Positions 420 through 46,840 of a DNA stretch of 64,000 nucleotides are shown piece after piece. The first letter of the stretch is position 1, and each line of letters opens with the position of its first letter. The stretch lies in contig NC_089434.1 of the NCBI RefSeq assembly GCF_026210795.1, positions 3,286,001 through 3,350,000 of the forward strand, given 5' to 3'. Source of the DNA: Rhizophagus irregularis (taxonomy: Eukaryota; Glomeromycota; Glomeromycetes; Glomerales; Glomeraceae). The notes beneath the pieces were generated by a model, which had not been told where the DNA came from, made no database searches, and saw only the letters and a list, made by a program, of their open reading frames with translations. The position numbers were made by a program, and so were the translations under genes.

Positions 420-651
420 AATAATATAAAAATACCCTTTGGCAAATTTTTAAAAGAAATTTATATTTTTTTCGTTCTGAAAATTGAAAGTTTCTCTCGT
501 TCAAATCATTTCTTCTACGAATTCCATTGGTTATTTCTTAAGATATATAAAGTGTTATACCGATAATATACATATTTAGTTCAATTGTTGCTTTGAAGAA
601 AAAAAAAATAATATATTTTGAGAAACATCTTTAACGCAAGAAGTTTTTACA
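420..651 (+). promoter_or_regulatory. Promoter and 5' leader of family A copy 1 (long type)
   Basis: This stretch is closely repeated before the copies at 18214 and 24927. It contains CCCTTTGGCAAATTTTT near 436, AAAATTGAAAGTTTC near 480, a TTCTACGAATTCCATT stretch, and a TATA-like TATATAAAG at 544-552, about 100 bases before the ATG. The last bases before the start codon (AAGTTTTTACRATG) are also conserved in all copies. Conservation of non-coding sequence next to the start codon suggests shared expression control, but a simple recent duplication would give the same picture. Confidence 0.5.
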
Positions 652-1185
652 ATGACTCATGGATCCGATTTGGATTTTACTGAAAATATTAATGATGGAA
701 ACAATCATTTACAACAACCAACAAATGTGATCCAAATGGAGCATACTCGAATGGAATATAATCAAATAGAACATAATCAAATGGAACATACTTCAAATGC
801 TCCATATAATAATAACTTTAATATTTCTTGCAACCCTTCAGATACAACAACTTACAACACTGGCAATAACGAAGGGTCCTCTTTTATGGATAATCAACTT
901 GGTACTTCAACTCAATACTATGATCCTACGTTCACTACATCGTATCACGCGCCGCAGTATAACTCTCTTCTTGATGATATTCAATTCCAAAATAACTTCT
1001 CATCAGTTAATATTCCTCAGACGGATAATTCTGAGATCTTTAGACTTAATATTCCCGGTTTCAAAATCATCGTTATACCTAATTCTGTAAATTTAGCTAA
1101 TTTGGATTTACAAAATTTGTTTCCACAAGACTCTAACCCAAATATCGTTACTATTCATTTGATTTTAATAACTTTTAGTAACTAA
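652..1185 (+). CDS. Family A protein, copy 1, C-terminus altered by deletion
   Basis: Unknown function. The 177-residue frame starts at the ATG conserved in all paralogues. Residues 1-15 are the conserved start (DLDFTENIND), residues ~29-46 carry four MEH/MEY short repeats, residues ~50-120 are Asn/Ser/Thr/Tyr-rich and probably disordered, and the hydrophobic motif IFRLNIPGFKIIVIP follows at about residue 130. No signal peptide, membrane segment or known domain is seen. Compared with the copy at 28120, 43 bases are missing after codon NIVT (about 1152), which shifts the frame: the usual tail ending in FDFNNF is replaced by about ten unrelated residues and the frame ends at the next TAA. A possible polyadenylation signal AATAAA lies at 1264-1269. 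No intron is needed. It may still be expressed as a tail variant. Confidence 0.6.
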   Translation: MTHGSDLDFTENINDGNNHLQQPTNVIQMEHTRMEYNQIEHNQMEHTSNAPYNNNFNISCNPSDTTTYNTGNNEGSSFMDNQLGTSTQYYDPTFTTSYHAPQYNSLLDDIQFQNNFSSVNIPQTDNSEIFRLNIPGFKIIVIPNSVNLANLDLQNLFPQDSNPNIVTIHLILITFSN

Positions 1186-1372
1186 ATTTCTTTTTATCTA
1201 ATTTATATTATTATTATTTCTTATCTGTATTTTTTAAATATTTTATCATGTATTCATTATATAAATAAAGTTATATTTATTATCTAATTCTTAGCTATTA
1301 ATATTTGCCAAGGGCTTAGGCCAAAATCTAATTATAATAAATAATGTTGGGATGCGGATTCTTTAAAACGAT

Positions 1373-1561
1373 CTAAGGCAAAAGAATTATATGTTTTATT
1401 TGCGAATTTATATGATCGATTCCCGGCAATTCTTGAAATTTCTTTAAAATCCGCTTCAGGGTTTTTGTCTTTAATTTATCCTGTAAATCTTTTCGAAATA
1501 AAATAAACGCATTTTGAGGTCGAGTTATTCTACCTTTTTTGCCTACCAGACCTAGAATCAT
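1373..1561 (-). pseudogene. HMG-box (MATA-type) gene fragment
   Basis: The minus-strand frame carries GRITRPQNAFILFRKDLQ, matching the start of an HMG box of the fungal mating-type (MATA) class, where (R)P(P/Q)NAFILFR in helix 1 contacts DNA. Only this first part is recognisable; the following residues (KILKKFQELPGIDH and beyond) no longer match the box and a stop comes after 62 residues, against the usual 70-80-residue box in a larger protein. A second, more decayed copy lies at the same relative place in the unit at 28 kb. It is best read as a fragment carried along in the duplicated unit, not a working gene. The HMG call rests on the helix-1 motif alone. Confidence 0.5.
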
Positions 1562-1627
1562 TACAGATGATATAATAATTTTTGTACTGTTATATACATT
1601 TTACGTAAATAATTTTTGTTCTTTAAT

Positions 1628-1709
1628 GTTCTAAACTTTAGAAAATATTGAAAAAGTCCATAAATTATTGTATGAAACTGATAATATAATTAAGAAACGT
1701 AATTCATAA
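1628..1709 (+). pseudogene. Relic of kinase-gene 3' end
   Basis: The sequence is nearly identical to the last codons of the kinase fragment at 25706-26009 (peptide EKVHKLLYE.DN.IKK), but the codons between the upstream junction and GTTCTAAAC are missing and one base is inserted, so the frame is broken. The same joined form recurs at 29335, about 42130 and, inverted or diverged, near 45850. Confidence 0.5.
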
Positions 1710-2619
1710 TGTCCTTTTACTTTTAACAAGAGAATCTGGTACTTAAATATCATTAATCAAATATTTTTAAAGACAGAACAAATTTAATGTGAAATTTTTA
1801 GTTTGGAACTTTAACTCATAAAATTTATCGTAATTTTAAACAAACCTGCATGTTGGAGAATAGGGTATATTGAAAAAATTAATTTTTATCTATCCCTTAA
1901 ACTGTTTTGCAGCCAAATTTGCCTGCAATTTTGTTTTTTAATTAAAGACACTTTTAAATACCTTAAAATATTTTATTACATAAACCAATATTTTTGTAAT
2001 AAATTCTATAGTATTTTCTAAGTAAAAATCGAAAAAAAAGTTCAATTTGATTAATGATTTTTAAAAGTAAATGATCGACAAATTATAACAAATAGTAGCT
2101 AAATTTTTTAAATTGAAATATCTTTTTATCCATTAACCCTAGAAATATAAAATTACCACCATTTGATGCGTCTTAATGAGAAGAATCTGATATAAATAAA
2201 ATTATCCTTCTACAAATATTATGTGACAGGATAACTTATAAAATCTAAAAATTTATAGATTAATATAACTTTTTATTTGTCAATTTTAGAGTTATGATTT
2301 TATTACCATTAAATGCGCCTTAATAAGAGGAATCTAACAAATATAATTTCATCTTTCTATGATCACTAGATCTCAAGATATTTTAAAAATTCTAAAATTT
2401 TTAAAATTAATTTTAGTCCCTACAGTTTGAGGGATAGTTTGGAAGCAAATCACAAGAACGTATATGTATTTATAGCAACCGCGACCTAAAATAAGATATT
2501 TCCACATCTTTTATTAAAATGAATCGAATTATTATAATTTTTGAAAATAAATTTTCAAAATTTTGAAGAATCTATCATCTTAAATTAATGCATTTAATAA
2601 AGGGTAAACAATAATGTTA

Positions 2620-3950
2620 TTTTATTAAAAAAAAAAGTGTAACGTCAGTCATCAGCTGATATTTAATTTCTTTATGAGGTATTGAACATTCACTACTCAT
2701 AGGATATTATTTATCTAACTATAATAATATCTCAAAATATTAATGTTATTAATAAAGAGCGTTAGATCTAGAACCAAAAAGTAAAAATCCTGTATAAAAT
2801 TTGCATCTTTTCATTCCGAAACCATTGAATTAAAATTATTATTTATTATTTAATTAATTGTGAATATGTATTAGAGTATAGGACAAGATAGATATATTGA
2901 ACGCAACTTGAATCACAAATAAATGACTCAAAGAGGGACAATATCAAATCATTTTAGAAGAAACATAACCTCCATTAATGTACATCAGTGATCGTAAACT
3001 AAAAAAAAAATCAGAGAATTAGTTTAACTTTTAAATTGAATTTCAGATCATGAAATTTCAGTGAAACATTTTTACCTTTTGGGAATATTTTCACATCCAT
3101 CATCATTATCAATGATTTGGAGAACATCACGTAAGCATGCAAAAAATTTCTTGTTGAACTTCGAATATTTTTTTGATATATTTGGCCACATAGATTACCG
3201 TCATCAGTATAAGTTTATCACTTTAGGATTTAATTCTTTTAGAAAAATTATTTCAAAGTAAATGACAGGTTTTGTAACATTCTAAATCTTCAATTAGGTT
3301 CGTTCTATTATTGATAAATTATAAATGTCAGTAAATTTCAAAGAAAAATATTATATAACAATCCATTTCGATTAAAACGAGTCCTTACTAGGAATATTCA
3401 TATTTCTTTTTGATTTCAATCAAATTGCAAATTTGTTATATAATTATTTTAAGATATTAACCATATATTTCCGTTGCATATGTTTAACCAAAATCGTTAA
3501 ATGAAAAAGAGTATCGAAATCAAAGCTTTAATATTAAGGAAAGTTCCAGCTTATCATTAGTTTGAGTATTAAAATGTTCCTTCTGGCGTAACAAGACATT
3601 ATTTAATTAAAAATAAATATTTTACCTTCTTCTAAAAATCATTAGAACTTAGACTTTTATGAAATTAAATGTTCGTTGTTTTTATTCTACAAGTTATTAT
3701 TTCTATTATAGTTAACATTTATTATCTTTTCATGTCGTGTTTGAGATATTTGAGTTTCTGAAATAGTTGTTTAGAATGTTCCTCATAAAATAAAGGGAAA
3801 ATGTAATTACAAAGTGCGTTCGCATTGCTAAAGTAGGATAAAACCTTGTTAAAGACCTAAATGTAATAAATAAAACTTATTTCTAAAAAAATTTCTCACT
3901 ATCACGGGTTATATTGATTTTTCGATACTTATTTTTACCATGTGATTTAT
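2620..3950. repeat. Class I downstream block of unit 1
   Basis: Long stretches here recur after other family A copies: GTAACRTCAGTC near 2640, GCGTTAGATCTAGAA near 2758, a block around 2940-3260, CGTTGCATATGTTTAACCAA near 3472, and a terminal block (3740-3930) with AAACCTTGTTAAAGAC and TCACGGG. Matching copies lie at 26340-27560, 29800-31135 and 42540-43500, and part at 16690-16900. The block is non-coding apart from the small opposite-strand frame annotated separately. It defines a duplication unit of roughly 3.5 kb. Confidence 0.65.
2944..3191 (-). CDS. Candidate small two-exon gene opposite family A (copy in unit 1)
   Basis: Not recognised. Exon 1 is 3191..3076 and exon 2 is 2998..2944, joined across a 76-77 bp GTAAAA...TTTAG intron. 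Together they give 171 nt, a 56-residue protein from ATG to TGA with the piece FFACLRDVLQIIDNDDG followed by CENIPKS at the splice site and ending YVSSKMI. The paralogous unit at 26680-26926 keeps the same two exons, lengths, splice phase and stop with only a few substitutions. Other units (19.7, 30.2, 34.9 kb) have shifted or truncated versions. It could be a small gene, or the last exons of a larger gene whose 5' part has decayed. Four of the six exon differences between the two intact copies change the residue, so constraint is not demonstrated. Confidence 0.35.
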
Positions 3951-4529
3951 TTGGATCACATAATTGAGGTAAGGGAGAACCAAAGAAATCTTATTTTCTT
4001 TTTTTCTTAATAGTTTTGACACAGTTACATCATTTTGGAAAAAATTTGTTTATTGTTTCTAATAAATAAAAAAATTATTTATAAACTGTTTAATAAAGCA
4101 TTTTTTATTAACTTTTACATGTAATTTAATAATACAATGTAATTCGCGGAGAAGTATAGAAACGAAATTAGAATGAAGTTAAAAGAACGAAAGAATCCTT
4201 TCATTTAAAAAGAAAAAAAAAATTTTTTTCGTTTTAATCCATTATTTAAAAAAATTTTTTACTTTTCGTTTCTTTCCCTAATTGGCAGTTCCTTTTGTTT
4301 ATAAAAAAATTCGTTTTTTCTTTCCCTCATTGGCCATTTCTTTCGTAATTTAATAATATTTTAAACACTAACTGTTAACGTAGTTAACAGGTGAATCCTA
4401 GTAATAATAATAATTATCGTGCTCCGCTGTATGATGTTGATGATTTGTAATTTAATTATTTTTTATGCGTAAGTTTAATAATTACAATAAACTATATTTA
4501 AGCTATAAACAATACATGTGTTATAATTA
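3951..4529. other. AT-rich spacer with short homopolymer-rich duplication
   Basis: No gene is supported. Between about 4255 and 4345 a short segment with TTTCTTTCCCTAATTGG is followed by a near repeat TTTCTTTCCCTCATTGG, a local duplication. The rest is A/T-rich without recognisable structure. Confidence 0.45.
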
Positions 4530-6115
4530 TTAATTATGGCTATTAGGATTATTATTGAAAATAATAACAGAATTGATAAAAACTTTATCAGCTGTTAATT
4601 TCGAAACTAATTCTTCCAAATTTTGACTTTTATTTTCTTGAATTTCATTTAAATCTTTTAATGGCCTTTTTGTAACTTTAATATTACTGTTTGCCGAATT
4701 AATAACTTCACGATTATCTAGAAAAAGTTCAATTTTGTTAAATTGATTATCAAAAAATAGAATAAAATTTTAGAATATTACCATTAAGCAATGATTTTGC
4801 AACAACGAAATTGTCTGTTGATAAAGTTGATTGTTCCATTGATTCTTCTATAGAAGAAAATTAGAATGCAGGTCATTTATTAATGATTAAAAATTTCAAA
4901 TTTTTACCTGATCGAATATTATTTTTATTAAAACCAAATGCTTCAACAAGGTTAAAAGCATTATTTCGTTGAATTTCAGTTTCTGGACGCTCATATCTAG
5001 CAAGCCCTTGCTCAGACTTATGTCGTGTACTTGCCATACATTCAGAATTTGAAAATCCTCGTCGCTTTAATATTTGTACTAGCGTTTTCTGACCTGAATG
5101 GTTACTAATTTTGCGATCATCCACGTTAATTCCGGTTAAGGTAACAATTTTTTTCATAAAGGATTTAATTTCTTTTTCAGACACATGTTGCTTATGATAC
5201 CATTGTCCATTAAATTCAACTGTATAATATGAAATAAAAAATAATAAAAATTTTGACATTAGATTTGTCAAAAAAAAAAAAAATTTTAATATTTACCTTC
5301 ACTAATATTGCATGGCTTTAAATAAAAATGTGGATCAGCTTGGGTTGGACGTTTGGTAAAATAATTTTCATACATTTCAATGATACTAGGTATTTCGGGA
5401 ATGTATAACTTATCACCTTGAGATTCAATATTATTGGCACCGCGTTGATTAGTTTTTGATTTGTAAATGATAACATCATATCCACCATATTTGTTTTTTC
5501 TTCGTATAAAATTTTGAAGCTGCAAATTGAAATGTTCTCCTCCCCTTAACCCTAAAACAATAGCATTAAAAAAAAAGATCCTATATAATAAACTGGCAGG
5601 ATCATTGCCAGACATTGCTTGATGATCAAGAATCTGAAGAAGATCATCTTCAGTAAATCCATCAGCACCGTTACGCTCCCCACGACCTTGACTCACAAGA
5701 CTCTTAACTTTACCATTCAAAATCTGCCATAATTTGTAATATTGATCTTTATCCATAATGTTGATAGGTTTTGAAAAGACAGACTTATTATTCAAATGTC
5801 TATTTATTACAAACATGCAACTATTAACTGAAGAAACATGATATTCGAGAACCATCTTTTTTTCTCATTGCATGAACAAATCTACAAAGCTGATCCTCTA
5901 ATTCTTCTTTTGTATCAACTTCCTCAATCAATCCTTGATAATTAACATCTGTTCTAAATTTTTCCAAAGCTCGTATCCAATTTGAAGTTCGAATAATCAG
6001 TATTTTTACATCGGCTACTATCAATAAGATTGCGAAGTTCATCATCAGTAGGCTTTTTATAAGTAAAGTTCACCTTTAATTTCTTACAAGGTCGTTTATC
6101 TTTGTTATCTTGCAT
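4530..6115 (-). pseudogene. Crypton-like (DUF3504) tyrosine recombinase, frameshifted
   Basis: This minus-strand gene begins at the ATG at 6115 (MQDNKDKRPC) and ends at TAA 4530. Three introns are clear: 5296..5220, 4907..4848 and 4781..4718 (77, 60 and 64 bp, all GT..AG), each joining frames exactly. The catalytic domain shows VLGLRGGEHFNL (first catalytic Arg), a region around NHSGQKT, ASTRHK and LARYERP with the likely nucleophile Tyr. The residue that is normally the second catalytic Arg in HSGR is Gln (codon 5099-5101). Two frameshifts are seen, near 6003 and near 5858 (an extra C after DGS). The last two exons encode a polar tail beyond the domain. DUF3504 proteins derive from Crypton DNA transposons that cut and join through tyrosine chemistry. 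With two frameshifts and a lost Arg this copy is inactive. Confidence 0.8.
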
Positions 6116-6277
6116 CTTTAAAATATTAATAGAAAGGTTTTGTGTAAAAAAAAGAGTCGAAATGGAGAGAAATGAAATTGGATAAAGAAAAAAAATGATA
6201 AAAGCTTAATTTATGAGTTTAATTCGAGTTTAATAAAAGTTTAAATAAAACATCATAATGTCACACGATAATATCAT

Positions 6278-6424
6278 TATTGTGCTTGCGTTGATAAATA
6301 TACAATTATTAACCAATGCTGCATTCTGATTGGACAGATTTGGCCACTACGTGGCCAAATCCTTACCAATCATCTGCTAGCATTGGTTAATAATTGTAAT
6401 ATTAATCGCTACAAGCACTATAAT
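6278..6424. repeat. 147-bp palindromic MITE-like element
   Basis: The arms pair along nearly the whole length: ACAATTATTAACCAATGCT at 6302-6320 pairs perfectly with its complement at 6379-6397, outer arms (GTGCTTG at 6282 and CAAGCAC at 6412) extend the match imperfectly, and an inner stem GATTTGGCCAC/GTGGCCAAATC has a 3-base loop at about 6348. No clear target-site duplication. It lies upstream of the Crypton gene, but Cryptons lack terminal inverted repeats, so it is probably a separate foldback element. Confidence 0.65.
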
Positions 6425-6782
6425 TTATAATGAAGAATCAATATCTGAATGAATTTTTTCAAAAAAAGCAGTAGCAGATGTTGCAAGTATTTATTATTTT
6501 ATATTTGTAATCATAATATAGATTTATTAATTTATTGAGTAATTTAAATTAATACATAAAAAAAAAGTAAAAGTTTTTTGATATAATCATTCATTTTTTT
6601 ATTTAGAACAGTAACTAAGTTTCTTAAATATATTTTAAAATTCAACTATCATTTAATATATTTGGTAAATTTTAAACAAAAAAAACAAATTTACAATTGT
6701 TATCTTCCGTACCGTCACGTGATCGTATCGATCACGTGACTCTACCGCTTTAATGACCACGAGCTTTGACTGTGAAATAAAA

Positions 6783-7218
6783 TTAATAAAGGCTATGGCG
6801 GTGAATCCCTCTCATAACATGCATACGTCTTACACCATATGGCATCCAATATAAGTTCGGGCTGGTTTGTAATTGTCGCACTTGAAATAAGCCTCTATCA
6901 ACGCTAATAAATCTTGAAATCATCGAGTATTGGACATTCAATCTCCAACCAAGACCTTGAAGTTCTCTCCTCAATTCTCTTCTACACCAGGCTTAAATAT
7001 AATTATATATAAATAGTTAAATAAAAAATATGTTAGTCATGTTATAATTCATATTTTTTGTTTCACATACCACCATTCCTCCCAAAATGGGGATGTCCCG
7101 CAGGAATATTAGGAACTTCGTATATATCGTAAGCAAGATATGTAAGATCCCTTCTTACACGACGTGGATTCGGCAACGGACCAGGAGGTATAAATCGGCG
7201 GATTGCTCGTCTTGACAT
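6783..7218 (-). CDS. Small basic two-exon protein, unknown family
   Basis: I do not recognise the family. Exon 1 runs 7218..7071 and exon 2 6991..6783; the 79-bp intron (GTATGT...TTTAAG) joins them in phase to give 357 nt, 118 residues. The N-terminus is very Arg/Pro-rich (MSRRAIRRFIPPGPLPNPRR), followed by RRDLTYLAYDIYEVPNIPAG, then a segment WCRRELRRELQGLGWRL that could form a basic amphipathic helix, and a basic C-terminus (GVRRMHVMRGIHRHSLY). No signal peptide or membrane segment. The start is the first ATG of the frame with clean splice sites, and base composition is less AT-rich than the surroundings, which supports a real gene. It is divergently arranged with the gene starting at 7582. 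A nucleic-acid or acidic-partner binding role is only a guess from charge. Confidence 0.7.
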
Positions 7219-7581
7219 TTTAACAGAATTAAGATTAACGTAAAAATCAGTTAAATGATGAAAATGTAGCGAATATTTATTATCATCATTATTATTATCA
7301 TCATCATCATTATTATTATTATTATTAGCCCGAAGGACTATATAATACTGTATGTCCGTCCGGTAAAAATGTCATTCTTGACGAATTAATAATAAGAATA
7401 ATATACATGTATGTCTATCAAGAATCTTACCGTCAAAATTAGGCGGGATTGATGTACCATATATATATATATATATCCATTCTAGTTATTACGATCACGT
7501 GCCAGATCTTTACATGATTATCACATAATATTTTTGCGTGTACCTAATTGTGTAATCTCTTTTCTCACGTTCTTAAAGAAA
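7219..7581. promoter_or_regulatory. Bidirectional intergenic promoter region with microsatellites
   Basis: The 363-bp gap separates two divergent genes, so it must hold both promoters. It contains an ATT/ATC microsatellite (about 7270-7327), an AT-dinucleotide run (about 7459-7476) and a TCACGTG site near 7496. An imperfect inverted repeat (ATTCTTGACG at ~7375 and ATCAAGAATC at ~7418, with GGTAA/TTACC ends) lies between. Which elements act in transcription cannot be told from sequence alone. Confidence 0.45.
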
Positions 7582-10527: not shown

Positions 10528-10672
10528 AATTTATTCATCGCACGTGCGATGCATCGCCACTTTCCTTTTTTGTAAATTATTTATGTTGATCAACCTGCTT
10601 ATACATCGCCACCCCCCTTAAAATGGCAATGATAAACATAAAAATTTGCATCGCACGTGCGATAAATAAATT
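10528..10672. mobile_element. 145-bp MITE-like element with CGCACGTGCG termini
   Basis: Terminal inverted repeats of 26 bp (10528-10553 and 10647-10672) differ at one position. Each arm contains the self-complementary ATCGCACGTGCGAT. The interior has no coding capacity and repeats the word CATCGCCAC twice (10552 and 10603). No convincing target-site duplication was seen, so the superfamily is open. Confidence 0.65.
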
Positions 10673-10751
10673 ATTTCAAAAAAATATTACCGTATATCAC
10701 GCCATCGTACTACGCATGTATCCTCCCTTGAAAAATTTCATAAAATTGTAT

Positions 10752-13235: not shown

Positions 13236-13239
13236 ACCT

Positions 13240-16320: not shown

Positions 16321-16338
16321 GCATAGTAGGAAAAATAA

Positions 16339-18213: not shown

Positions 18214-18774
18214 ATGGCTCATGGATCCGATTTGGATTTTACTGAAATTATTAATAATCATTTACAACAACCAACAAATGTGATCCAAATGGGACATACT
18301 CAAATGGAATATAACCAAATAGAACATAATCAAATGGAATATATCCCAAATGTTCCATATAATAATAACTTTAATATTTCTCGCGACTCTTCAGATACGA
18401 CAACTTACACAACTAGCAATTACGAAGAGTCCTCTCTTATGGATAATCAACTTGGTACTTCAACTCAATACCATCATCCTACGTTCACTACATCATATCA
18501 CGTGCCGCAATATAACTCTCCTCTTGATGACATTCAATCCCAAAATAACTACTCATCAGTTAATTCTCCTCAATCGAATAATTCTGAAATCTTTAAACTT
18601 AGTATTCCCGGATTTAAAATTATCGTTATACCTAATTCTGTAAATTTAGCTAATTTGGATTTACAAAATTTGTTTCCACAAGACTCAACCCCAAATATCG
18701 TTACTGAAAACTCGCAAACTCTCTTTCAAAATACTTTTGGTTTAAATGATTCATTTGATTTTAATAACTTTTAG
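18214..18774 (+). CDS. Family A protein, copy 2, intact
   Basis: Unknown function. 186 residues, intact from the conserved ATG to TAG with the usual C-terminus (NDSFDFNNF). Compared with copy 4 it lacks the four residues DGNN/DRNN near residue 15. MEY/IEH/MEY short repeats occupy residues ~25-43, followed by an Asn/Ser/Thr/Tyr-rich region. The hydrophobic motif here reads IFKLSIPGFKIIVIP, followed by NSVNLANLDLQNLFPQDS, the most conserved segment of the family. No signal peptide, no Cys, no known domain. The 97-residue frame overlapping at 18350 is an out-of-frame shadow found in all copies. A possible poly(A) signal AATAAA lies at 18872-18877. Confidence 0.72.
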   Translation: MAHGSDLDFTEIINNHLQQPTNVIQMGHTQMEYNQIEHNQMEYIPNVPYNNNFNISRDSSDTTTYTTSNYEESSLMDNQLGTSTQYHHPTFTTSYHVPQYNSPLDDIQSQNNYSSVNSPQSNNSEIFKLSIPGFKIIVIPNSVNLANLDLQNLFPQDSTPNIVTENSQTLFQNTFGLNDSFDFNNF

Positions 18775-24926: not shown

Positions 24927-25504
24927 ATGGCTCATGAATTCAATTTGGATTTTACTGAAAATATTAATGATGGAAACAATCATTTACAACAACCAACAAA
25001 TGTGATTCAAATGGAACATATTCGAATGGAATATAATCAAATAGAACATAATCAAATGGAATATACTTCAAATGCTCCATATAATAATAACTTTAATATT
25101 TCTTGCAACCCTTCAGATACAACAAGTCAACAACTTACACAACTGGCAATAATGAAGGATCCTCTTTTATGGATAATCAACTTGGTACTTCAACTCAATA
25201 CTATCATCCTATGTTCACTACATTGTATCATGCATCGCAGTATAACTCTCCATTTGATGATATTCAATTCCAAAATAACTTCTCATCAGTTAATATTCCT
25301 CAGATGGATAATTCTGAGATCTTTAGATTTAATATTCCCAGTTTCAAAATCATCGTTATACCTAATTCTGTAAATTTAGCTAATTTGGATATACAAAATT
25401 TGTTTCCACAAGACTCAACCCCAAATATCGTTACTGAAAACTCGCAAACTTACTCTCAAAATACTTTTGATTTAAATGATTCATTTGATTTTAATAACTT
25501 TTAG
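24927..25504 (+). pseudogene. Family A copy 3, broken by an 8-bp insertion
   Basis: The first 66 or so codons (MAHEFNLDFTENINDG through NISCNPSDTT) are in frame from the conserved ATG. An 8-base insertion, in effect a duplication of AACAAGTC-like sequence near 25118-25130, shifts the frame. The rest of the protein, with MDNQLGTSTQYYHP, IFRFNIPSFKIIVIP and the normal end NDSFDFNNF, is intact in the +1 frame to TAG 25504. Residues also deviate from consensus (IPSFK for IPGFK). Possible poly(A) signal follows within 100 bases. Most likely a recent pseudogene. Confidence 0.75.
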
Positions 25505-26009: not shown

Positions 26010-26339
26010 TGTCTTAATTTTTACAAAAGGAATCTGGTACTTAATTAATTATCTTTAATCTGAAATATCAAAATGTTTTAAAGACAGCCAATTCAATGTG
26101 AATTTTTAATTTGGAACTTTACCTCCTAAAATTAATCATAATTTTAAACAAACCTGCATATAGAAAAAAAATATATTTTATCTATAGTTTGGGAAGAACG
26201 ATATATGTAATTTATAGCAACTGCGGTTTAAAATAATTGGTTGTTAATATTTCTACATTTTTTATCAAAATGAATCGAATTATTATAATTTTGAAAATAA
26301 TTGAAAAATCTATCAACTTAAATTCATGCATTATGTTAT

Positions 26340-27560
26340 TTTATTAAAAAAAAAGATGTAACATCAGTCGTCAGTTGATATTTAATCTCTTTATGTGGTA
26401 TTGAAAATATACTACTCATAGGATATTAAAAAAAAAATGCTTCTTTATCCAACTATAATAATATCTCAAAATATTAAAGTTAGAGCGTTAGATCTAGAAT
26501 TAAAAAGTAAAAATCCTGTATCTTTACATTCTGAATCATTGAATTAAAATTATTATTTATTATATAAACGTTGTCTTAAACTACCATTCTTGCATATTCA
26601 CAATTAGAGTATAGGACAAGATAGATATATGTCATATATCGAATGCAATCACATATCAATGGCTCAAAGAGGGACAATATCAAATCATTTTAGAAGAAAC
26701 ATAACCTCCATTAATATACATCAGTAATCGTAAACTAAAAAAAAATCAGAGAATTAGATTAACTTTTAACTTGAATTTCAGATCATGAAATTTCAATGAA
26801 ATATTTTTACCTTTTGGGAATATTTTCACATCCATCATCATTATCAATGATTTGGAGAACATCACGTAAGCATGTAAAAAATTTCTTATTTAACTTCGAA
26901 TATTTTTTTGATATATTTGGGCACATAGATTACCATCACCAGTATAAATACAAGTTTTTCACCTTTAGGATTTAATTCTTTTAGAAAAATTATTTCAAAG
27001 TAAATGACAGGTTTTGTAACATTCTAAATCTTCAGTTCTATTATTGATAAATTATAAATGTCAGTAAATTTCAAAGAAAAATATTATAAATTTGTGATAA
27101 CGATCTATTACTAGCAAAAATTGGTTAAAGGGTCTTGACTTCTAAGAATATTCATATTTCTTTTGATTTCAATCATATTGCAAATTTTGTGATGAAATTA
27201 TTTTCATATATTTCCGTTGAGTATGTTTAACCAATATCGTAAAATGAAAAAGAGCATCCAAGCTTTAATACTAAGGAAAGGTTCAACTTACCATTAGTTT
27301 GAGTAAAGTTATTTTCCAACGTAACAAGACATATTTTTAATTAAAATAAATATTTTGCTTTCTCCCAAAAATTATTAGAAATTAGAAAATAAGCCATACT
27401 ATGAAATTAAGTATTTGTGGTTTTATTCTACAAGTTATCAGTTATTATTTCTTTTATAGTTAATATTATTTTTTCACGTCATGTTTGAGATATTTGGGTT
27501 TCTAAAATAGTTGCTTATAAAATAAAGGAAAAATATTACAAAAAAAACTTTTTCTGAAGG
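26340..27560. repeat. Class I downstream block of unit 3
   Basis: Nearly collinear with 2620-3790 of unit 1: TTATTAAAAAAAAAGATGTAAC at the left, GCGTTAGATCTAGAA near 26483, the two-exon frame region, CGTTGAGTATGTTTAACCAA near 27217, and TTTCTAAAATAGTTGC at the right. The terminal block with CCTTGTTAAAGAC is missing and replaced by other sequence after about 27545. Confidence 0.6.
26680..26926 (-). CDS. Candidate small two-exon gene (copy in unit 3)
   Basis: Exon 1 26926..26811 and exon 2 26734..26680, separated by a 76-bp GT..AG intron, give 56 residues with the same layout as the copy at 2944-3191: FFTCLRDVLQIIDNDDG, then CENIPKS across the splice and a YVSSKMI end. Differences from that copy are few (Trp to Cys at residue 2, Phe to Leu, Ala to Thr, Ser to Leu plus two silent changes). 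Not recognised; retention of frame, splice sites and stop in two units is the only support. Confidence 0.35.
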
Positions 27561-27668: not shown

Positions 27669-27777
27669 ATTTTTTTTTTTTATATGGTGTTTTTTTTTAT
27701 ATGGTGTTTTTTTTTTATATGGTGTTTTTTTTTTATATGGTGTTTTTTTTTATATGGTGTTTTTTTTTTATATGGTG
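27669..27777 (+). repeat. 17-18-bp minisatellite (T-tract plus TATATGGTG)
   Basis: Six copies of a T run of 8-11 followed by ATATGGTG lie in tandem, with the T-run length varying between copies. It sits immediately upstream of family A copy 4, between its promoter and the end of unit 3. Confidence 0.85.
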
Positions 27778-27959
27778 ACCATTTTTTTTTAGGGTTCATT
27801 CGTTTCGGTATAAAAAAAAATGGGGGTGATTGTGTTTATTAAGAAAAAAAAATATTTAAAATTATGTAAATAAAAAATTTATGCATAGCTGCTTTTGGAC
27901 TATCAAAGAAAATGAAAAATATTTGGGCGGGGTTTTTTTTTGTGTCACCTTGACAGAAT

Positions 27960-28119: not shown

Positions 28120-28692
28120 ATGGCTTATGGATTCGATTTGGATTTTACTGAAATTATTAATGATAGAAACAATCATTTACAACAACCAACAAATGTGATC
28201 CAAATGGAACATACTCGAATGGAACTTAACCAAATGGAACATAATCAAATGGAACATACTTCAAATGTTCCATATAATAATAACTTTAATATTTCTCGCG
28301 ACTCTTCAGATACGACAACTTACACAACTGGCAATTACGAAGAATCCTCCTCTCTTATGGATAATCAACTTGGTACTTCAGCTCAATACTATGATCCTAC
28401 GTCCACTGCATCATATTACGCGCCGCAGTATAACTCTACACTTGATGATATTCAATTCCAAAATAACTTCTCATCAGTTAGTCCTCCTCAAACGGATAAT
28501 TCTGAAATCTTTAGACTTAATATTCCCGGATTTAAAATTATCGTTATACCTAATTCTGTAGATTTAGCTAATTTGGATTTACAAAATTTGTTTCCACAAG
28601 ACTCTAACCCAAATATCGTTACTGAAAACTTGCAAACTCACTCTCAAAATACTTTTGGTTTAAATGATTCATTTGATTTTAATAACTTTTAG
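28120..28692 (+). CDS. Family A protein, copy 4, intact and best family reference
   Basis: Unknown function. 190 residues, intact. Layout: conserved start (FDLDFTEIIND), HLQQPTNVIQ at 19-28, four short repeats MEHTR/MELNQ/MEHNQ/MEHTS at 29-48, an Asn/Ser/Thr/Tyr-rich disordered region to ~128, IFRLNIPGFKIIVIP at 130-144, NLDLQNLFPQDS to 162, and the end NDSFDFNNF. High Asn/Gln/Ser/Thr and lack of Cys or Trp suggest a flexible, possibly prion-like or interaction protein. The hydrophobic beta-like IVIP patch may be a binding or assembly motif (inference). No transport signal is seen. Poly(A) signal-like AATAAA follows about 100 bases after the stop. Confidence 0.72.
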   Translation: MAYGFDLDFTEIINDRNNHLQQPTNVIQMEHTRMELNQMEHNQMEHTSNVPYNNNFNISRDSSDTTTYTTGNYEESSSLMDNQLGTSAQYYDPTSTASYYAPQYNSTLDDIQFQNNFSSVSPPQTDNSEIFRLNIPGFKIIVIPNSVDLANLDLQNLFPQDSNPNIVTENLQTHSQNTFGLNDSFDFNNF

Positions 28693-29418: not shown

Positions 29419-29799
29419 GTCTTTTTATTTTTACAAGAGAATCTGGTAAATATCATTAATCAAATATTTTTAAAGACAGAACAATTCAATGTGAAATTTT
29501 TGGATTGGAACTTTACCTCCTAAAATTTATCGTAATTTTAAACAAACCTGCATGTTGAAGAATAGGGTATATTGAAAAAAATTAATTTTTATCTATAGTT
29601 TGGAAGCAAATCACAAGAACGTATATGTATTTATAGCAGCTGCGGCTTAAAATAAAATATTTTCACATTTTTCATTAAAATGAATCGAATTATTATAATT
29701 TTGAAAATAATTCTTCAAAATTTTGAAAATCTATTATCTTAAATTAATGCATTTAATAAAGAGTAAACAATAATGTTATTTTATTAAAAAAAGGTGTAA

Positions 29800-31135
29800 C
29801 GTCAGTCGTCAGTTGATATTTAATCTCTTTATGAGGTATTGAAAATTTACTACTCATAGGATATTAAAAAAAATGCTTCTTTATCTAACAATAATAATAT
29901 CTCAAAATATTAACGTTATTCATAAAGAGCGTTAGATCTAGAATTAAAAAGTAAAAATCCTTGACTTCAATGAATATTATTAAATTCTACTGCAATTCTA
30001 TATAAAATTTACATCTTTTCATTCCGAATCATTGAATTAAAATTATTATTTATTATTTTATCGAACGCAATCACAAATCAATGGCTCAAAGAGTACAATA
30101 TCAAAACATTTTAGAAGAAACGTAACCTCCATTAATATATATCAGTAACCGTAAACTAAAAAAAAAATCAGAGAATTAGTTTAACTTTTAACTTGAATTT
30201 CAGATCATGAAATTTTAGTGAAATATTTTTACCTTTTGGAAATATTTTCACATCCATTATCTCATGATACATTTTGGCCACTATTTACCGTCATCAATAT
30301 AAATACAAGTTCTTTAGAAAAATTATTTCAAAATAAACAGCAGTTTTTGTTTCTTTTTACATCTTAGCTGAATTATGAAGGAACTTATTATCTAATAAAA
30401 ATTTGATATTAAAAAATATATTTTTAATTGAAATTTTGCAAAATATCTTATCAGTAATTTAGCATTTAGCAAATTGAGTTACCTTTTTCTTTTTCTGCTT
30501 TAGAATTCTAAACCTTCAATTAGGTTCGTTCTATTATTGATAAATTATAAATGTTAGAAAATCTCAAATATTATAAATTCGTGATAATGATCTATTACTG
30601 GCAAAAATCGGTTAAAGGGTCAAATTTTGTTGTGGGATTATTTTTCAGATAATAAAAGATATTAAACATATACATGTATTTCCACTATATATGTTTAACC
30701 AATATTGTAAAATGAAAAGCACCAAAATCAAAGTTTTAACGCTAATGAAGATTCCAGCTTACTATTAATTTGGGTATTAAAGTGTTATTCTCCAGTGTAA
30801 CAAAGACATATTTTTCAATTAAAAAAAAATTATTAGAAATTTCATACTATGAAATTAAGTGTTCTTTATGTTTTTATTTTACAAATTATTATTTCTATTA
30901 TATTTTTTTCACGTTAAAATTGTTGTGATTGAAAATATTTGGGTGGCTTTCTAAAATAGTTGTTCAAAATGCTCCTCATAAAACAAGAGGAAAAATTTAC
31001 GTAATTACAAAGAAAGTGTGCTCACGTTGTTAAAGTTATTAAACCTTGCTAAAGACTTAAAAAGTAATAAATAAAACTTATTTCTAGCAAAAAATTTTCA
31101 GCCCACTTATTACTATGTATCACCTTACATGGATT
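29800..31135. repeat. Class I downstream block of unit 4
   Basis: Collinear with unit 1: GTAACGTCAGTCGTCAGTTG at about 29797, GCGTTAGATCTAGAA near 29929, opposite-strand exon remnants near 30110-30280 (first exon truncated), an extra ~190-bp stretch (about 30337-30500) not seen in units 1 and 3, and the terminal block CCTTGCTAAAGACTT near 31046. Confidence 0.6.
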
Positions 31136-31551: not shown

Positions 31552-32000
31552 TTCATAAAATATAGTGTTATAATATATCTAGTATACATATTAAAAAGAA
31601 TTTGGCTTTGAAGAAAAAAAATAATATATTTTGAGAAAACATCTTTAAGAATTTTTATAGTAGAGCAAAAAGTTTTTAGATCCGATTTGGATTTAACATA
31701 CTCCAACTGTTCCATATAATATGACTACGAAGGGTCCTCTTTTATAGATAATCAACTTGATATTTCAACTCAATACTATCATCCTACGTTCAGTCGTTCA
31801 CTACATCGTATTATGTGTCGCCAATTCTGAGATCTTTAGATTTAACATTCTCAAGTTTAAAATTATCGTTATACTTAATCCTGTAAATTTAGCTAATTTT
31901 ACAAAATTTGTTTTTACATGACTCAACCTCAAATATCGTTACTGATAATTCATAAACTCACTCTAAGAATATATTTTTGGTTTGAATGATTCTAATTTAC
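31552..32000 (+). pseudogene. Family A copy 5, deep relic
   Basis: Leader words (GGCTTTGAAGAAAAAAAATA, AGCAAAAAGTTTTTAGATCC) and coding pieces survive: GATCCGATTTGGATTT at 31679, then directly AACTGTTCCATATAAT, GAAGGGTCCTCTTTTATAGA, CTTGATATTTCAACTCAATA, TTTAAAATTATCGTTATAC and CAAAATTTGTTTTTACATGA. The ATG, the MEH repeats and much of the centre are deleted, and stops occur in every frame. Confidence 0.75.
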
Positions 32001-32009
32001 ATTATTATT

Positions 32010-36347: not shown

Positions 36348-36908
36348 ATGGCTCATGGATCCGATTTGGATTTTACTGAAATTATTAATGATGGAAACAA
36401 TCATTTACAACAACCAACAAATGTGATCCAAATGGAGCATACTCGAATGGAACTTAACCAAATGGAACATAATCAAATGGAATATATCCCAAATGTTCCA
36501 CATAATAATAACTTTAATATTTCTCGCGACCCTTCAGTTACGACAACTTACACAACTGGCAATTACGAAGAGTCCTCTCTTATGGATAATCAACTTGGTA
36601 CTTCAACTCAATACCATTATCCTACGTTTACTACATCGTATCACGCGCCGCAGTATAACTCCCCTCTTGAAGATATTCAATTCCAAAATAACTCCTATAC
36701 TCTTCAGACGGATAATTCTGAGATCTTTAGACTTAATATTCCCGGGTTTAAAATCATCGTTATACCTAATTTTGTAAATTTAGCTAATTTGGATTTACAA
36801 AATTTGTTTCCACAAGACTCAAACCCAAATATCGTTACTGGAAACTCGCAAACTTACTCTCAAAATACTATTGATTTAAATGATTCATTTAATTTTAATA
36901 ACTTTTAG
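36348..36908 (+). CDS. Family A protein, copy 6, intact
   Basis: Unknown function. The start is placed at the ATG at 36348, conserved in all paralogues; the frame is open 45 bases further upstream but without an ATG. 186 residues. MEH/MEL/MEH/MEY repeats lie near residues 29-46, and the central region is shortened by a few residues (NNSYTLQTDNS where others have NNFSSV..PQTDNS). IFRLNIPGFKIIVIP is conserved and NSV is NFV. The end reads NDSFNFNNF. Frame intact to TAG. Poly(A)-like AATAAA lies near 36990. Confidence 0.72.
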   Translation: MAHGSDLDFTEIINDGNNHLQQPTNVIQMEHTRMELNQMEHNQMEYIPNVPHNNNFNISRDPSVTTTYTTGNYEESSLMDNQLGTSTQYHYPTFTTSYHAPQYNSPLEDIQFQNNSYTLQTDNSEIFRLNIPGFKIIVIPNFVNLANLDLQNLFPQDSNPNIVTGNSQTYSQNTIDLNDSFNFNNF

Positions 36909-36919
36909 TAACTAAACAA

Positions 36920-40395: not shown

Positions 40396-41937
40396 CTATC
40401 CAACAATAGATGATCGATTACTTTTGACTAGCAAGATATCAATCTCATCCTGCAAACTCTTATAACTAAATGAACGGCTAGTGTAAACGGCTTCTGAATG
40501 AATAGGTTTATTCGGTTTCCATTTCATTTTAATATAAATTCGACAGGCTTTGTGGGCAATTTTCAACTGCTGATGAATTTCACTATCAGAATATTTTATT
40601 AAATCATAATCTGGATCAAAAAATCCTGACTGATAATCTTTAAAAAAATCACCACTAATTTCAATTAGATATTCACTATTTGGATATCCAAAATCATCCC
40701 TTGACCGCCTAAATTTGCACAATCTTTCGATGGATATTAATATTTCACTCGCGGATGGTCGTTTCGAAGGATCAGGATCCCAACACACCTTTATAATATC
40801 ATTGTATACTAGAGGAGAGTAATGGCATGTTTGTGGGCGAAGACCATCGCAGATATCCAATATTAGATTTACATCATGAGAACGGTCCGCAAATGCAATG
40901 ATTCCACAAGCTAACTCCCATAAGAGAATTCCAAGGCTGTAAATATCGCCTGCTTGAGAATATGGATTGCCACGAATTATTTCTGGCGCAATATAGGAAA
41001 TGACCCCATACACTTTGTCTTTTGCTTCTACTGTATCAGTTGGTCGACACATTCCAAAGTCGGAAATGAATGCATTTTCTTCGTTTAGTAAAAGAATGTT
41101 TCCGCTATGGAGATCACCGTGGACCCATCCTTTTGCATGAATTTTTTCAAGTTCAGCACATATGGTTTGGGCTATACCCAACTTATTCGGTAATGTAAGG
41201 TTATCAAAATTTCGCAATAAATATCGTCGAAGATCACCTTGTGGTGCAAAACGCATTATAAACATATATTCTAATGTCGAGGGATCTTGTGTGATCCCGT
41301 ACAAATGACAAAAATCGAACTGGGCTTGAACCTAAATATGTAATAAGAGAAATTACCATCATATATATAATAATTCTAATTTATAGGGAATTTGTACCTC
41401 TAAAAGAAATGTTTGCGTAAATTCCATTTCACCTTTCAGTTTCTTTAGAGCAACTGTACATGGACCAGTTCGATAATGATATACATTTTTTCTCGTCTTA
41501 TCATATTTATCCTCTTCTTCCAGAGATGATTTAATTCCCCAACTCCACATTGCAGAAAACACCGTACCAAATCCACCTTCACCAATCTTCTTTATTTGGG
41601 ACAAAGAGTTGTGTGGAACCCATTCAGGATACCGTTCGTATGGAGAAAAAAGTTGTGTTTCCTGTATGAAGCTATCAATTAGTTCATTCCCACTGGTCCA
41701 ACTCGAAAACTTGCCGTGCAAAACTCGATGAAGACAATTATCGCAAATGTATGGCAAGTTTAAGTCGCATTTAGGACCCAATGATGATTCAAGTTCTGGG
41801 TTTAGACTTTTAAGGTATCTTATTCTCTCTGGATCTAATGTTTTTGGAAATTCATTATCAGACATTCGAAAGTTACACTCTATTTGTGGATTCTTTCCCT
41901 TTAGTTTAAAAAGTTCGAGGACGTGCTGTTTTTCCAT
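40396..41937 (-). CDS. Protein kinase (TKL-like), two exons, intact
   Basis: Predicted Ser/Thr/Tyr kinase. Exon 1 41937..41398 and exon 2 41331..40396, with a 66-bp GTACAA...TTTAG intron in phase 0; 491 residues. N-terminal ~110 residues carry a Cys pair (CDNC, 65-68) and GNELIDSFIQETQ (83-95), a lead-in usual for the expanded kinase family of these fungi. Kinase domain: glycine loop GEGGFGTV (119-126), VALKK with catalytic Lys 165, catalytic loop HGDLHSGN (251-258; HRD Arg is Gly), DFG 271-273, APE 295-297, WDPDPSKRP (364-372). The stretch between glycine loop and Lys is unusually long (~40 residues, EEEDKYDKTRK). All core catalytic residues are present, so it should be active. No signal peptide or membrane segment: likely cytoplasmic signalling. 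Gly for the HRD Arg suggests activation not dependent on loop phosphorylation. Substrate unknown. Confidence 0.9.
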
Positions 41938-42009
41938 AGTGGAGTGTTAACAAATACATATTTCAGCCTGCTTGAACGGAATAACTCCATTAAAAAGTGT
42001 ATTTTTCAT

Positions 42010-43500
42010 TGTAAAAAAAAGTCTAAACTGTAGATCAGACCTATAATCATATCAGAATGGATATAATAATTTTTTATACTGCTATAATACTGTACATTTT
42101 ATGTGATATGTTTCAAAATAATTTTAATTCTTTAATGTTCTAAACTTTAAAAAATATTGAAAAAGTCCATAAATTATTGATAATTTAATTAATTTATTTT
42201 TACAAGAGAATCTGGTACTTAAATATCATCAATCAAATATTTTTAAAGACAGAACAATTCAATGTAGAACTTTAACTCATAATTTTAAACAAACCTGCAT
42301 GTCGGAGAATAGGTTATATTGAAAAAAATTAATTTTTTATCCATAGTTTGAAAGAAAATCAAATGAATGTATATGTATTTATAATAGCAATTGCGACTTA
42401 AAATAATTAGTTGTTGACATTTCTACATTTTTTTACCAAAATGAATTATTTTGAAAATAAAGAAAATTAAAAAATAATTTTGAAAAATCTATAAATCTAT
42501 ATATAATCTTAAAATTAATGCATTTAACAAAGGGTATACAATATAATATTTTATTAAAAAAAGGTGTAACGTTAGTCGCCATTTGATCTTTATGAGGTAT
42601 TGAAATATACTACTCATAGGATATTAAAAAAAAATGCTTCTTTGACTATAATAATATATCAATATTTTAAAGTAGTTCTAGAACTAAAAAGTAAAAATCC
42701 TTGATTTCAATGAATATTATTGAATTCTACTGCAATCCTGTATAAAATTTACATCTTTTCATTACGGATCATTGAATTAAAATTATTATTTATTATTTAA
42801 GCGTTGTCTTAAACTATCATTTTTACATATTCACAATTTGAGTATAGCTCAAAGAGGGACAATATCAAATCATTTTAGAAGAAACACAGCCTCCATTAAT
42901 AATTAATATAAATCAGTAATAGTAAACTAAAAAAAAATCAGAGAATTAGTTTAACTTTTAACTTGAATTTCAGATCATGAAATTTTAGTGATATTTTCAC
43001 ATCCATTATCTTCATGATACACTTGGCCACTATCTACCTCCATCAGTTAGCAAATTGAGTTACCTTTTTCTTTTTCTGCTTTAGAATAATGTAATACCAA
43101 TCCATTACAATCGAAAAATCGATTAAAACGAGTCATGATTAGGAATATTCATATTTCAAATTTTGTTATGAAAAAATTTTAAGATATTAAACATATATTT
43201 TCGTTGCATATGCTTAAACAATATCGTAAAATGAAAAAGAGTATTCGAACTAAAGATATAAGTAAAGTTCCGGCTTACCATTAGTTTGAGTATTAAAATG
43301 TTACTCTCCAGCGTAACAAGACATATTTTTAATTAAAAAATAAATATTTTGTTTTTTCTAAAAGAAATTAGACAAATAAGTCAAGTTATTATTTCCTTTA
43401 TAGTTTATCTTTTCACGTCATGTTTGAGATATTTGGGTATCTAAAATAGTTTATAATTATTATAATTATAAGATAAAGGAAAAATATTACAAAAAAAAAA
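42010..43500. repeat. Orphan class I block beside the kinase gene
   Basis: Begins with GACCTATAATCAT and the kinase-tail relic GTTCTAAACTTTAAAAAATA (about 42137), passes GTAACGTTAGTCGCCATTTG (about 42566), a stretch CTAGAACTAAAAAGTAAAAATCC, remnants of the opposite-strand exons (42880-43030, first exon mostly deleted), and CGTTGCATATGCTTAAACAA (about 43203). No family A gene precedes it; the kinase at 40396-41937 sits where one would be. Confidence 0.6.
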
Positions 43501-43843
43501 CTTTTGTTAATAAAGCGTCATGTTAGCATGTGGTCATCCAATGTAAAAATAACCAATAAACTTTCCTGTACATCTAAAGTGAATTCATAATGATCTCTTC
43601 ACGCATAATCCTGCATACGTTAAAGAAGTGTGATGATGATTGACAAAAGCAGATATTTTTATCTAAAATTTTTGATATAAAAGTCCAGCCACTGAAGCGG
43701 TTTTTTCATTTTATTTTGAGCTTATCGCTTCTTTACTTTTTTAATCATTATATTATCAAAAAAAAAAAATGTTTAGATAAAATTTCAAAATTATATTTTA
43801 TAATTATATTTATTTCTTAATAAAATAAGCGAATAAAACTTAC

Positions 43844-44775
43844 CAAAAAGAAATGCGTATAGTGCTGCTATTAATCCCCATGCACCACCTATTAAATCCA
43901 GTCCACTTAAGTACTAAATAGAATCGAATTTAATAATTTTTGTTTTTCATAGTAAGAAAAAAGTTCCTCAATATAATAAAAGTACTTACTGTCTTTGATC
44001 TTTTTATTAATTAAATATATAAGTTGTTTTTAGTTTAATAACTGAAATAAAGAATTATTTAATAATGACTATAATATTATTATATATATACAAACCTAAC
44101 TTCTTTATCTACTCGAATGACATTTTTGCTCTTAGGTTTTATATTAAAAGATATTAAACTACCCTCCGTCGATTTATATAACAACGGCCCTCCAACTAAA
44201 GAAAATAAGAATAAATAGTAAATATAATATTATTGGAATTAATAAAATAATATGACTTACCTAAAGTAGATTCAATATTTGATTTCTGTTCATAAGTTGG
44301 AGGGACACCAAAATCGTTCATCCAATTTGGTTTCATTGATTCTCTAATTACACGAGAATATGGAAAATCGTAAAACTACGAAAAAAGACTTGTTAGTAAT
44401 CTCCCATAAATATTTCATGCTTAATATTAAGAAAATTCCAAACACCTGAGCTGGCTTTATTTTATACATATTCAACTCATAAATTGAATCGTCATATGCA
44501 GTCATTTCCTTCAATAATTTATGATATATATCATATTCTATGATAATACAAAAAACTATTAAATATTTATATATGAAATTTCGAATATAAATTTTAATAA
44601 TACCTGAATCAAAAGCAATGATCTTTCCAAGAAACAGTGAAAGAAAGATCACAAACTCAGGAAACGTAAATCCTAATTCCCACCAGCATTTTAATTATAA
44701 GATATTTGTCTGAATGGTAAAAGCCTCAGGACCTTTTGCGCAACAGAATTTATGTCGTCTAATATCTTCTATTAC
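43844..44775 (-). pseudogene. Broken multi-exon membrane-protein gene fragment
   Basis: Minus-strand exons can be followed: 44775..44604, 44537..44446, 44375..44261, 44195..44096 and 43913..43844, with GT..AG junctions. Pieces: VIEDIRRHKFCCAKGPEAF; WWELGFTFPEFVIFLSLFLG (a hydrophobic segment); YELNMYKIKPAQFYDFPYSR; NWMNDFGVPPTYEQKSN; GGPLLYKSTEGSLISFNI; GLDLIGGAWGLIAALYAF (a second membrane-like segment). An in-frame TAA lies in the first exon (about 44696), the region between the last two exons has stops, and both ends of the gene are missing. I recall similar fungal proteins with a C-terminal GGAWG-type membrane segment, without known function. Clearly a decayed fragment. Confidence 0.6.
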
Positions 44776-45119
44776 CTAGAATTCAAAATTAATATCCATA
44801 AAACTCTCACAACAAATATTTTAATTTGGTCGAACCGTTTCAATTTTTGCGAATAACAAAATCACTATCATAGTCGACGAATTTAATTATATTAAAATAA
44901 ACCCTCAAGTAGAAAATAGAATAAATTAATTACTAATAATTATATATTTAGCAAAATTTCAATTTTAAATATAATTTGTAATATTAAATTTTAGGTTCTT
45001 TCATAAGTTCTGCCAAGTTGTAAATAAAGCAAAATAAATGTGTAATGTGTAATTTATATATATATATAAATCCAATAATTTACAATAAAAATAAAAAATT
45101 TTTTTTTAATAGTTTATTT
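44776..45119. other. AT-rich spacer
   Basis: Low-complexity A/T sequence with an AT-dinucleotide run near 45057. No feature supported. Confidence 0.4.
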
Positions 45120-45970
45120 TTTGGGATATTTTCACACCCATCATCTTTATCGATGATTTATTTACTTACTTGCCCAATTTCATCAATTTTAATATGGTAA
45201 GATTATTTTATTTTTCCACGCGCATATTTGAACCGCCAAATTTTTTATTTTAACTTAAATTCTCTGGTTTTTTTAGTTTACGAAATGCAACAATCACTAA
45301 TGTATATTAATGGAGATTACGTTTCTTCTAAAATGATTTGATCTGTCGTGATTCAAGTTGCGTTCTATCTATCTTGTCCTATACTCTAATTGTATAAAAA
45401 TGTAATTGAATATGCAAACAATGGCAGTTTAAGTAATAATAGATAATAGTTTTAACTTTTAACTCAATGATTTGGAATGAAAAGTTGAAAATTTTATACA
45501 GGATTGCAGTAGAGCTTAATAATATTCATTGAAGTCAAGGATTTTTGCTTTTTAGTTCTAGATTTAACGCTCTTTACTAATGACTTTAATATTTTGAGAT
45601 ATTATTGTAGTTAGAATTTCATAAAGAAGCATTTTTTTTGATATTCTATGAGTCAAATCAAATAACATATCGTATGACCTATGTTAAATGCATTAATTTA
45701 AGAAAAGCAAACATCCTTTTTTTCATTTATTTCCTATTATTTGAACTAATCACCATAGACTAATTAAACGATACAATAATTTTCTATACTGTTATACATT
45801 TTACATAACAATAGAGTTCACTCGATATATATCAAAATAATTTTAGTCCTTATAATGTTTTTAGAAATATTGAAAAAAAAGTCCATAAATTAACATTGAT
45901 AATTTAATTAAGAATACCATTCTTTTATTTAAATTGATGCCATTCGAGATATTCCAACTGCGGCTTGTCA
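45120..45970. repeat. Rearranged, mostly inverted class I block
   Basis: From 45262 on the sequence is the reverse complement of the shared block: exon-2-like TTTACGAAATGCAACAATC (about 45279) reading YEMQQSLMYINGDYVSSKMI on the plus strand, then the complement of GGACAAGATAG and of GCGTTAGATCTAGAA. By contrast 45123-45160 (GGGATATTTTCACACCCATC) is in the same direction as unit 1. An inversion junction therefore lies between about 45165 and 45260. The kinase-tail relic near 45850 is again in plus orientation, indicating a second junction. Confidence 0.5.
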
Positions 45971-46074
45971 ACTTTAAATATTTATTTATATAATATAATG
46001 AAAATGAATACATAATAAAAATACATAAAAAATACAGATAAGAAATAATAAGAATATAAATTAGATGAAAAAAT

Positions 46075-46635
46075 TTAGTTACTAAAGTTATTAAAATCAA
46101 ATGAATCATTTAAACCAAAAGTATTTTGAGAGTGAGTTTGCGAGTTTTCAGTAACGATATTTGGGGTAGAGTCTTGTGGAAACAAATTTTGTAAATCCAA
46201 ATTAGCTAAATTTACAGAATTAGGTATAACGATGATTTTAAATCCGGGAATACTAAGTCTAAAGATTTCAGAATTATTCGGTTGAGGAGTATTTTGGAAT
46301 TGAATATCATCAAGAGGTGAGTTATACTGCGGCGCGTAATATGATGCAGTGAACGTAGGATCATCGTATTGAGCTGAAGTACCAAGTTGATTATCCATAA
46401 GAGAGGAGGACTCTTCGTAATTGCCAGTTGTGTAAGTTGTCGTATCTGAAGGGTCGCGAGAAATATTAAAGTAATTATTATATGGAACATTTGGAGTATG
46501 TTCCATTTGATTATGTTCCATTTGGTTACGTTCCATTCGAGAATGCTCCATTTGGATCACATTTGTTGGTTGTTGTAAATGATTGTTTCCATCATTAATA
46601 ATTTCAGTAAAATCCAAATCGAATCCATGAGCCAT
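46075..46635 (-). CDS. Family A protein, copy 7, inverted, stop shifted
   Basis: Unknown function. Start is the conserved ATG at 46635 (18 bases inside the open frame). 186 residues: FDLDFTEIINDGNN, four MEH/MER short repeats, NISRDPSDTTTYTTGNYEE, IFRLSIPGFKIIVIP, NLDLQNLFPQDS. The central region is shorter (no SSV segment after QFQN). One T is missing from the AACTTTTAG at the usual stop, so translation runs on two extra codons to the TAA at 46075 (end NNFSN). It is the only clear full copy on the minus strand, with its own short-type promoter inverted along with it. Confidence 0.7.
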   Translation of the reverse strand: MAHGFDLDFTEIINDGNNHLQQPTNVIQMEHSRMERNQMEHNQMEHTPNVPYNNYFNISRDPSDTTTYTTGNYEESSSLMDNQLGTSAQYDDPTFTASYYAPQYNSPLDDIQFQNTPQPNNSEIFRLSIPGFKIIVIPNSVNLANLDLQNLFPQDSTPNIVTENSQTHSQNTFGLNDSFDFNNFSN

Positions 46636-46840
46636 CGTAAAAACTTTTTGCACTATAAAAAAATTTTGAAGTTTATTATTTTTTTCTTCAAAGTGATAAT
46701 TGCACCAAATATGTATATTAGATATGTTATAAAACTATATTTATCTTAAGAGAGAAACTTTTATATTTTTAATGTTCAAAAAATAAGGCCTTTTAAATAG
46801 ATTTTTTTAAAATAATAAAAATATTTTAGTGTAAACCTAA
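46636..46840 (-). promoter_or_regulatory. Promoter and leader of family A copy 7 (short type)
   Basis: Reverse complement of the short-type leader of copies 4 and 6: AAAAGTTTCTCTCTTAAG, TACATATTTGGTGCAATTAT, and upstream TTACACTAAAATATTTTTAT shared with copy 6. Confidence 0.5.

Follow-up and report, generated by a model that had tools for sequence, protein, structure and literature searches.

The window analysed here is a stretch of 64,000 nucleotides of Rhizophagus irregularis DAOM197198 (contig C6, 3,286,001-3,350,000). R. irregularis is the model arbuscular mycorrhizal fungus. The window contains six copies of a gene for a small disordered protein with a conserved motif, IPGFKIIVIP, together with the relic of a copy, a doubtful distant relative and several co-duplicated segments (Table 1).

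Table 1. The motif gene family and associated segments in the window (window coordinates)
Feature	Position	Strand	Remarks
Family copy 1	652-1185	+	177 aa, open frame; motif 1051-1079
Family copy 2	18214-18774	+	intact, 186 aa; motif 18604-18632
Family copy 3	24927-25504	+	frameshift-broken, parts in two frames; motif reads IPSFKIIVIP
Family copy 4	28120-28692	+	intact, 190 aa; motif 28522-28550; predicted beta-hairpin at residues 131-142
Family copy 5	36348-36908	+	intact, 186 aa; motif 36738-36766
Family copy 6	46075-46635	-	intact, inverted, 186 aa; motif 46223-46251; ends FNNFSN (two additional C-terminal codons)
Relic of a copy	31720-31952	+	three frames, with stops
Doubtful distant relative	51497-51841	-	similar only to an aberrant frame on contig C22 (L018)
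Downstream segment co-duplicated with copy 1	2434-3682		79% identical to 26194-27424; no long frame; decayed flank
Downstream segment co-duplicated with copy 3	26194-27424		no long frame
Downstream segment co-duplicated with copy 4	29595-30830		no long frame

The preliminary description had counted six copies, a relic at 31.6 kb and a relative at 51.5 kb, with at least three intact frames (18214, 28120 and 36348) and a fourth (46075) longer by two codons. The copies, the four frames and the relic are all present as claimed. In copy 1, a frameshift past NIVT has swapped the tail for an out-of-frame read (IHLILITFSN). Against the family profile, the relic gives matches in three frames (E 1e-7, 2e-5 and 6e-4). 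The relative is doubtful, because its match to the family profile is not significant (E 2) and its sole likeness, from a one-to-one comparison, is to the odd frame L018. The latter (1489-1773; contig C22:2183907) matches the C6 family at its N-terminus (phmmer E 5e-7 within the collected set), lacks the motif and has a basic C-terminus (SSSYRILRNRRIQRRIRH...NGSNFF); the 51.5-kb frame has a similar end. The cluster had been called a 'dispersed tandem family'. 'Tandem' is loose for copies that are 3-18 kb apart with one inverted, and the term as a whole understates a genome-wide family; a further copy lies 2.2 kb beyond the window end (C6:3352164). For several copies the duplication took in segments 1-3 kb downstream; the genes are open, and the flanks have no long frame. 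The idea that the co-duplicated segment carries a companion gene was rejected, as no frame there exceeds 73 residues. A short tandem run with a unit like TTTTTTTTATATGGTG is found upstream of copy 4 (about 27670-27790).

The window cluster is one of several clusters of a family spread through the genome. In the 146.7 Mb searched (32 contigs), single-protein queries give about 88 loci on 13 contigs, a lower bound in which fragments are counted and matches are merged from hand-collected coordinates. Contig C20 has 35 loci, C22 has 21, C6 has 12, C13 and C19 have four each, and the others have one or two each. One window protein used as query finds 18 matches on eight contigs; members from C20, C13, C22 and C19 find 68, 64, 47 and 11 respectively, and the C6 core peptide on its own finds 51. 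Degenerate DNA for IPGFxI[IV][IV][IV]P has 35 exact matches genome-wide and its reversed control has none, so the motif recurs beyond chance. There are at least 27 distinct single-exon, motif-bearing frames of at least 130 residues, including a C27 copy with a broken tail and N-terminus. In a tree, members cluster mostly by chromosome (C6 with C27, 100/99; C22, 100/99; C19 with C14, 100/100), so dispersal came first and local amplification followed.

The family is apparently undescribed. No description was found in the literature, whether searched by the peptide or by R. irregularis families that are clustered, prion-like or rich in Asn. The earlier view that the proteins resemble no known family is borne out: seven members have no Pfam match above cut-off (VASt, T7-like_Y65 and Pox_G7 fall below theirs), and no significant relative is found among PDB sequences (best E 2.7), PDB folds (best E 0.76, with a low-confidence query model), viral contigs or prokaryote contigs. 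The R. irregularis genome shows a burst of Glomeromycotina-restricted genes (PMC10234402).

A typical member is a single-exon protein of 140-216 residues with 23-31% Asn+Gln, 17-27% Ser+Thr and 5-10% Pro. The core consensus is roughly [FYL]-x-[FL]-x-I-P-G-F-[KE]-I-[IV]-[IV]-[IV]-P, in which I-P-G, the next I and the final P do not vary across the 27 aligned members (eight contigs). Most sub-families have a second, weaker conserved patch after the core (NLxNLDxQN), which is not found in the C20 group. The motif is doubled in a C22 sub-family and in one C14 member; the C22 pairs are close together, whereas in the C14 protein (L032 1119-1613; contig C14:629604) two IPGFEIIV motifs are more than 100 residues apart. 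MEH pentad repeats had been reported for the window proteins. These are real, as three to four MEHxx units, but vary in number and are private to the C6/C27 sub-family. The acidic-aromatic end NDSFDFNNF is likewise present (for example LANLDLQNLFPQD...NDSFDFNNF, which is without basic residues), and shorter variants (FDQFQQ, FNNFHN) recur on other chromosomes. Lys+Arg residues number only one to five in most members, whereas shuffling the same DNA gives about 10% (z about -4); the kinase and recombinase-like frames of the window have normal Lys+Arg. The 19 C6 and C20-type sequences checked contain a single Cys, that of copy 1. As noted before, there is no signal peptide: judged by sequence, no sub-family starts like one, and the N-termini MAHGSDLDF, MSQNTLQNN and MDYYNILQNN are hydrophilic. 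In the C20 member L013, translation from an upstream in-frame ATG would give a hydrophobic leader; it is not counted as protein, because a C1 relative has a stop in between and the TATA of C20 relatives lies near that spot.

The copies are functional protein-coding genes under purifying selection, which is strongest on a 16-residue segment. For the C6 set, pooled Nei-Gojobori dN/dS (JC-corrected) amounts to 0.48 overall, 0.56 upstream of the motif, 0.13 in the motif and 0.59 downstream; when six near-full copies and a motif of 16 codons are used, the motif value is 0.08. Eleven C20/C1 members give 0.41, 0.51, 0.10 and 0.33 respectively. Bootstrap intervals, which are approximate because the sequence pairs are not independent, are 0.00-0.28 (C6) and 0.02-0.24 (C20) for the motif, and 0.30-0.63 (C6) and 0.31-0.53 (C20) for whole genes. 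A motif value of 0.08-0.13 against 0.4-0.5 for whole genes is the mark of real genes, and lies far from the value of about 1 that non-coding duplication was expected to give. The preliminary description had proposed function with diversification, as in secreted or recognition families. Function is upheld; diversification of that kind is not, since dN/dS is below 1 in all 20-codon blocks with a computable ratio (highest 0.84) and the variable centre thus looks relaxed rather than positively selected. About three stops are expected in a C6 gene copy that has diverged neutrally to 0.1 substitutions per site. TATAAAA is found 58-130 nt 5' of the start codon in 18 of 27 members, on several chromosomes, compared with 3.4 in dinucleotide shuffles (maximum 9) and seven on the other strand. 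AATAAA occurs within 250 nt past the stop of 26 members out of 27, where shuffles would give 10.2. Since the antisense control scores 27 of 27, this signal does not discriminate.

AlphaFold2, run on an alignment of 27 family members, predicts disorder throughout (mean pLDDT 44) except for two strands on the motif (131-135 and 138-142, pLDDT about 70) that turn at Pro136-Gly137. A two-motif C22 protein is modelled with two hairpins (128-143 and 155-174; pLDDT 57-77 by block). The motif is thus predicted, from models of low to moderate confidence, to form a beta-hairpin turning at the conserved Pro-Gly. For a two-residue hairpin, however, L-Pro-Gly would not be the classic turn. The models agree with the earlier reading of a disordered chain with one hydrophobic beta-like patch, and place the hairpin precisely at the motif.

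A short stretch that stays constant while the chain around it drifts is characteristic of motifs for docking or assembly, which favours intracellular adaptors or co-regulators. Near-absence of Cys and the lack of a signal peptide suggest an intracellular location, and one conserved hairpin across some 88 loci points to one conserved partner class, or to the family itself as partner. What we infer of the partner, location and activity of these proteins is, tentatively, that they are disordered adaptors or co-regulators inside the fungus, in which the hairpin binds a shared partner or its own kind. They would form a birth-and-death family of small, single-exon proteins. The hairpin would serve as docking element for one partner class common to the whole family, or for a second hairpin; the aromatic, lysine-poor acidic tail may be an activation-type or condensate-forming region, and the rest of the chain is predicted to be a disordered Asn/Gln/Ser/Thr-rich acidic spacer. 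Members would be interchangeable, with dosage and tail varied via local duplication. The tail resembles acidic activation-type regions, which are acidic, rich in aromatic residues or Leu and poor in basic residues, in composition only.

More speculatively, the hairpin could be a new class of docking or assembly motif, with members of one and two hairpins as interchangeable connectors, monovalent and bivalent respectively, of an intracellular, perhaps nuclear, assembly. The family shares with disordered proteins built around a single short linear motif the strong purifying selection on a short segment of a drifting disordered chain. However, none of the described classes of such motifs was found to correspond to IPGFKIIVIP in the peptide literature search, and no known docking domain matches in the Pfam, PDB sequence and fold searches. 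Since this large, selected family is defined by one short peptide, the motif offers an unusually simple handle: a 16-residue bait with which the shared partner could be sought. Should docking or assembly turn out to be what the hairpin does, a widely deployed interaction would have been identified in a fungus whose gene functions are difficult to test.

The main rival of adaptors or co-regulators is self-assembly, which is rather unlikely. Here the motif would be an amyloid-type signalling motif, with hairpins or beta-arches stacking between members in an Asn/Gln-rich setting, as in HET-s or RHIM. The Asn+Gln content and the single conserved hydrophobic beta segment are consistent with this, and the two motif copies of the C22 sub-family and the C14 member are reminiscent of the two pseudo-repeats of HET-s (PMC5485727). 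Like the fungal motifs HET-s, PP and sigma, the family motif is short, hydrophobic, beta-forming and conserved, and some members have two. However, it sits in a free-standing disordered protein with net acidic charge and no executor domain; no Pfam model matched, and inspection by eye of 43 frames, lying up to about 1.5 kb to either side of the members retrieved, revealed no NLR or HeLo-like frame.

Effectors or recognition proteins that act on the plant, towards which the preliminary description had leaned, would have to be secreted unconventionally, and are improbable. Local amplification and fast sequence drift do resemble effector families, and disordered effectors of the SP7 type are known from R. 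irregularis (PMC11333574). Secretion is not supported: signal-peptide-like starts are missing from every sub-family, Cys is nearly absent in the sets checked, there is no excess of amino-acid change and no positive selection, and basic residues are too few for a host nuclear localisation signal. SP7-like proteins and the arabinogalactan-protein-like (AGL) proteins of arbuscular mycorrhizal fungi are the nearest known disordered families in R. irregularis, and the present family lacks defining features of both. SP7-like proteins are Glomeromycotina-specific, multi-member and almost wholly disordered, which is the likeness counted here; they carry a signal peptide and 6-11 imperfect hydrophilic repeats, and many also have a nuclear localisation signal (PMC11333574), whereas the present family has neither signal-peptide-like start nor nuclear localisation signal, and repeats only as the three to four MEHxx units of C6/C27. 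AGL proteins also form small disordered low-complexity families, unique to Glomeromycotina, but are secreted and have Pro/Gly- or Gly/Asn-rich tandem repeats (PMC8786786). The present proteins lack both such repeats and a signal-peptide-like start; they are Asn/Gln/Ser/Thr-rich with modest Pro.

That the members are SUMO-interacting proteins, with the second strand (KIIVIPTSS) as SUMO-interacting motif (SIM), is very improbable. IIVI followed by Ser/Thr fits the loose SIM pattern, but the [VI][VI]x[VIL] core is not kept in all members (EIIVRP in a C19 member, EIIVNT in the second C14 motif), and conservation reaches IFxFxIPGF, which a SIM does not need. That the copies are non-coding duplications or a mobile element that merely look like genes is scarcely credible: flanks are co-duplicated and several copies are broken, but dN/dS is far below 1, single-exon frames are open on many contigs with TATA elements, and there are no common element ends, the upstream starts of the conserved blocks being different.

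Other features of the window include a separate direct-repeat array (D3, D6, D7) at 52822-59703, with copies 63-97% identical and spaced at 0.4-2.8 kb, which is not recognised as part of the family. Remains of a tyrosine-recombinase-like element lie on the minus strand at 5286-5855 and 4873-5259. The former frame matches DUF3504 above cut-off (Pfam E 3e-7); the latter, which adjoins it, matches nothing significantly in Pfam, although its sequence looks like the C-terminal part of the former (HSGQKTLVQIL). A protein kinase gene, apparently with at least two exons, is found at 40396-41937 on the same strand (PK_Tyr_Ser-Thr, E 4e-32).
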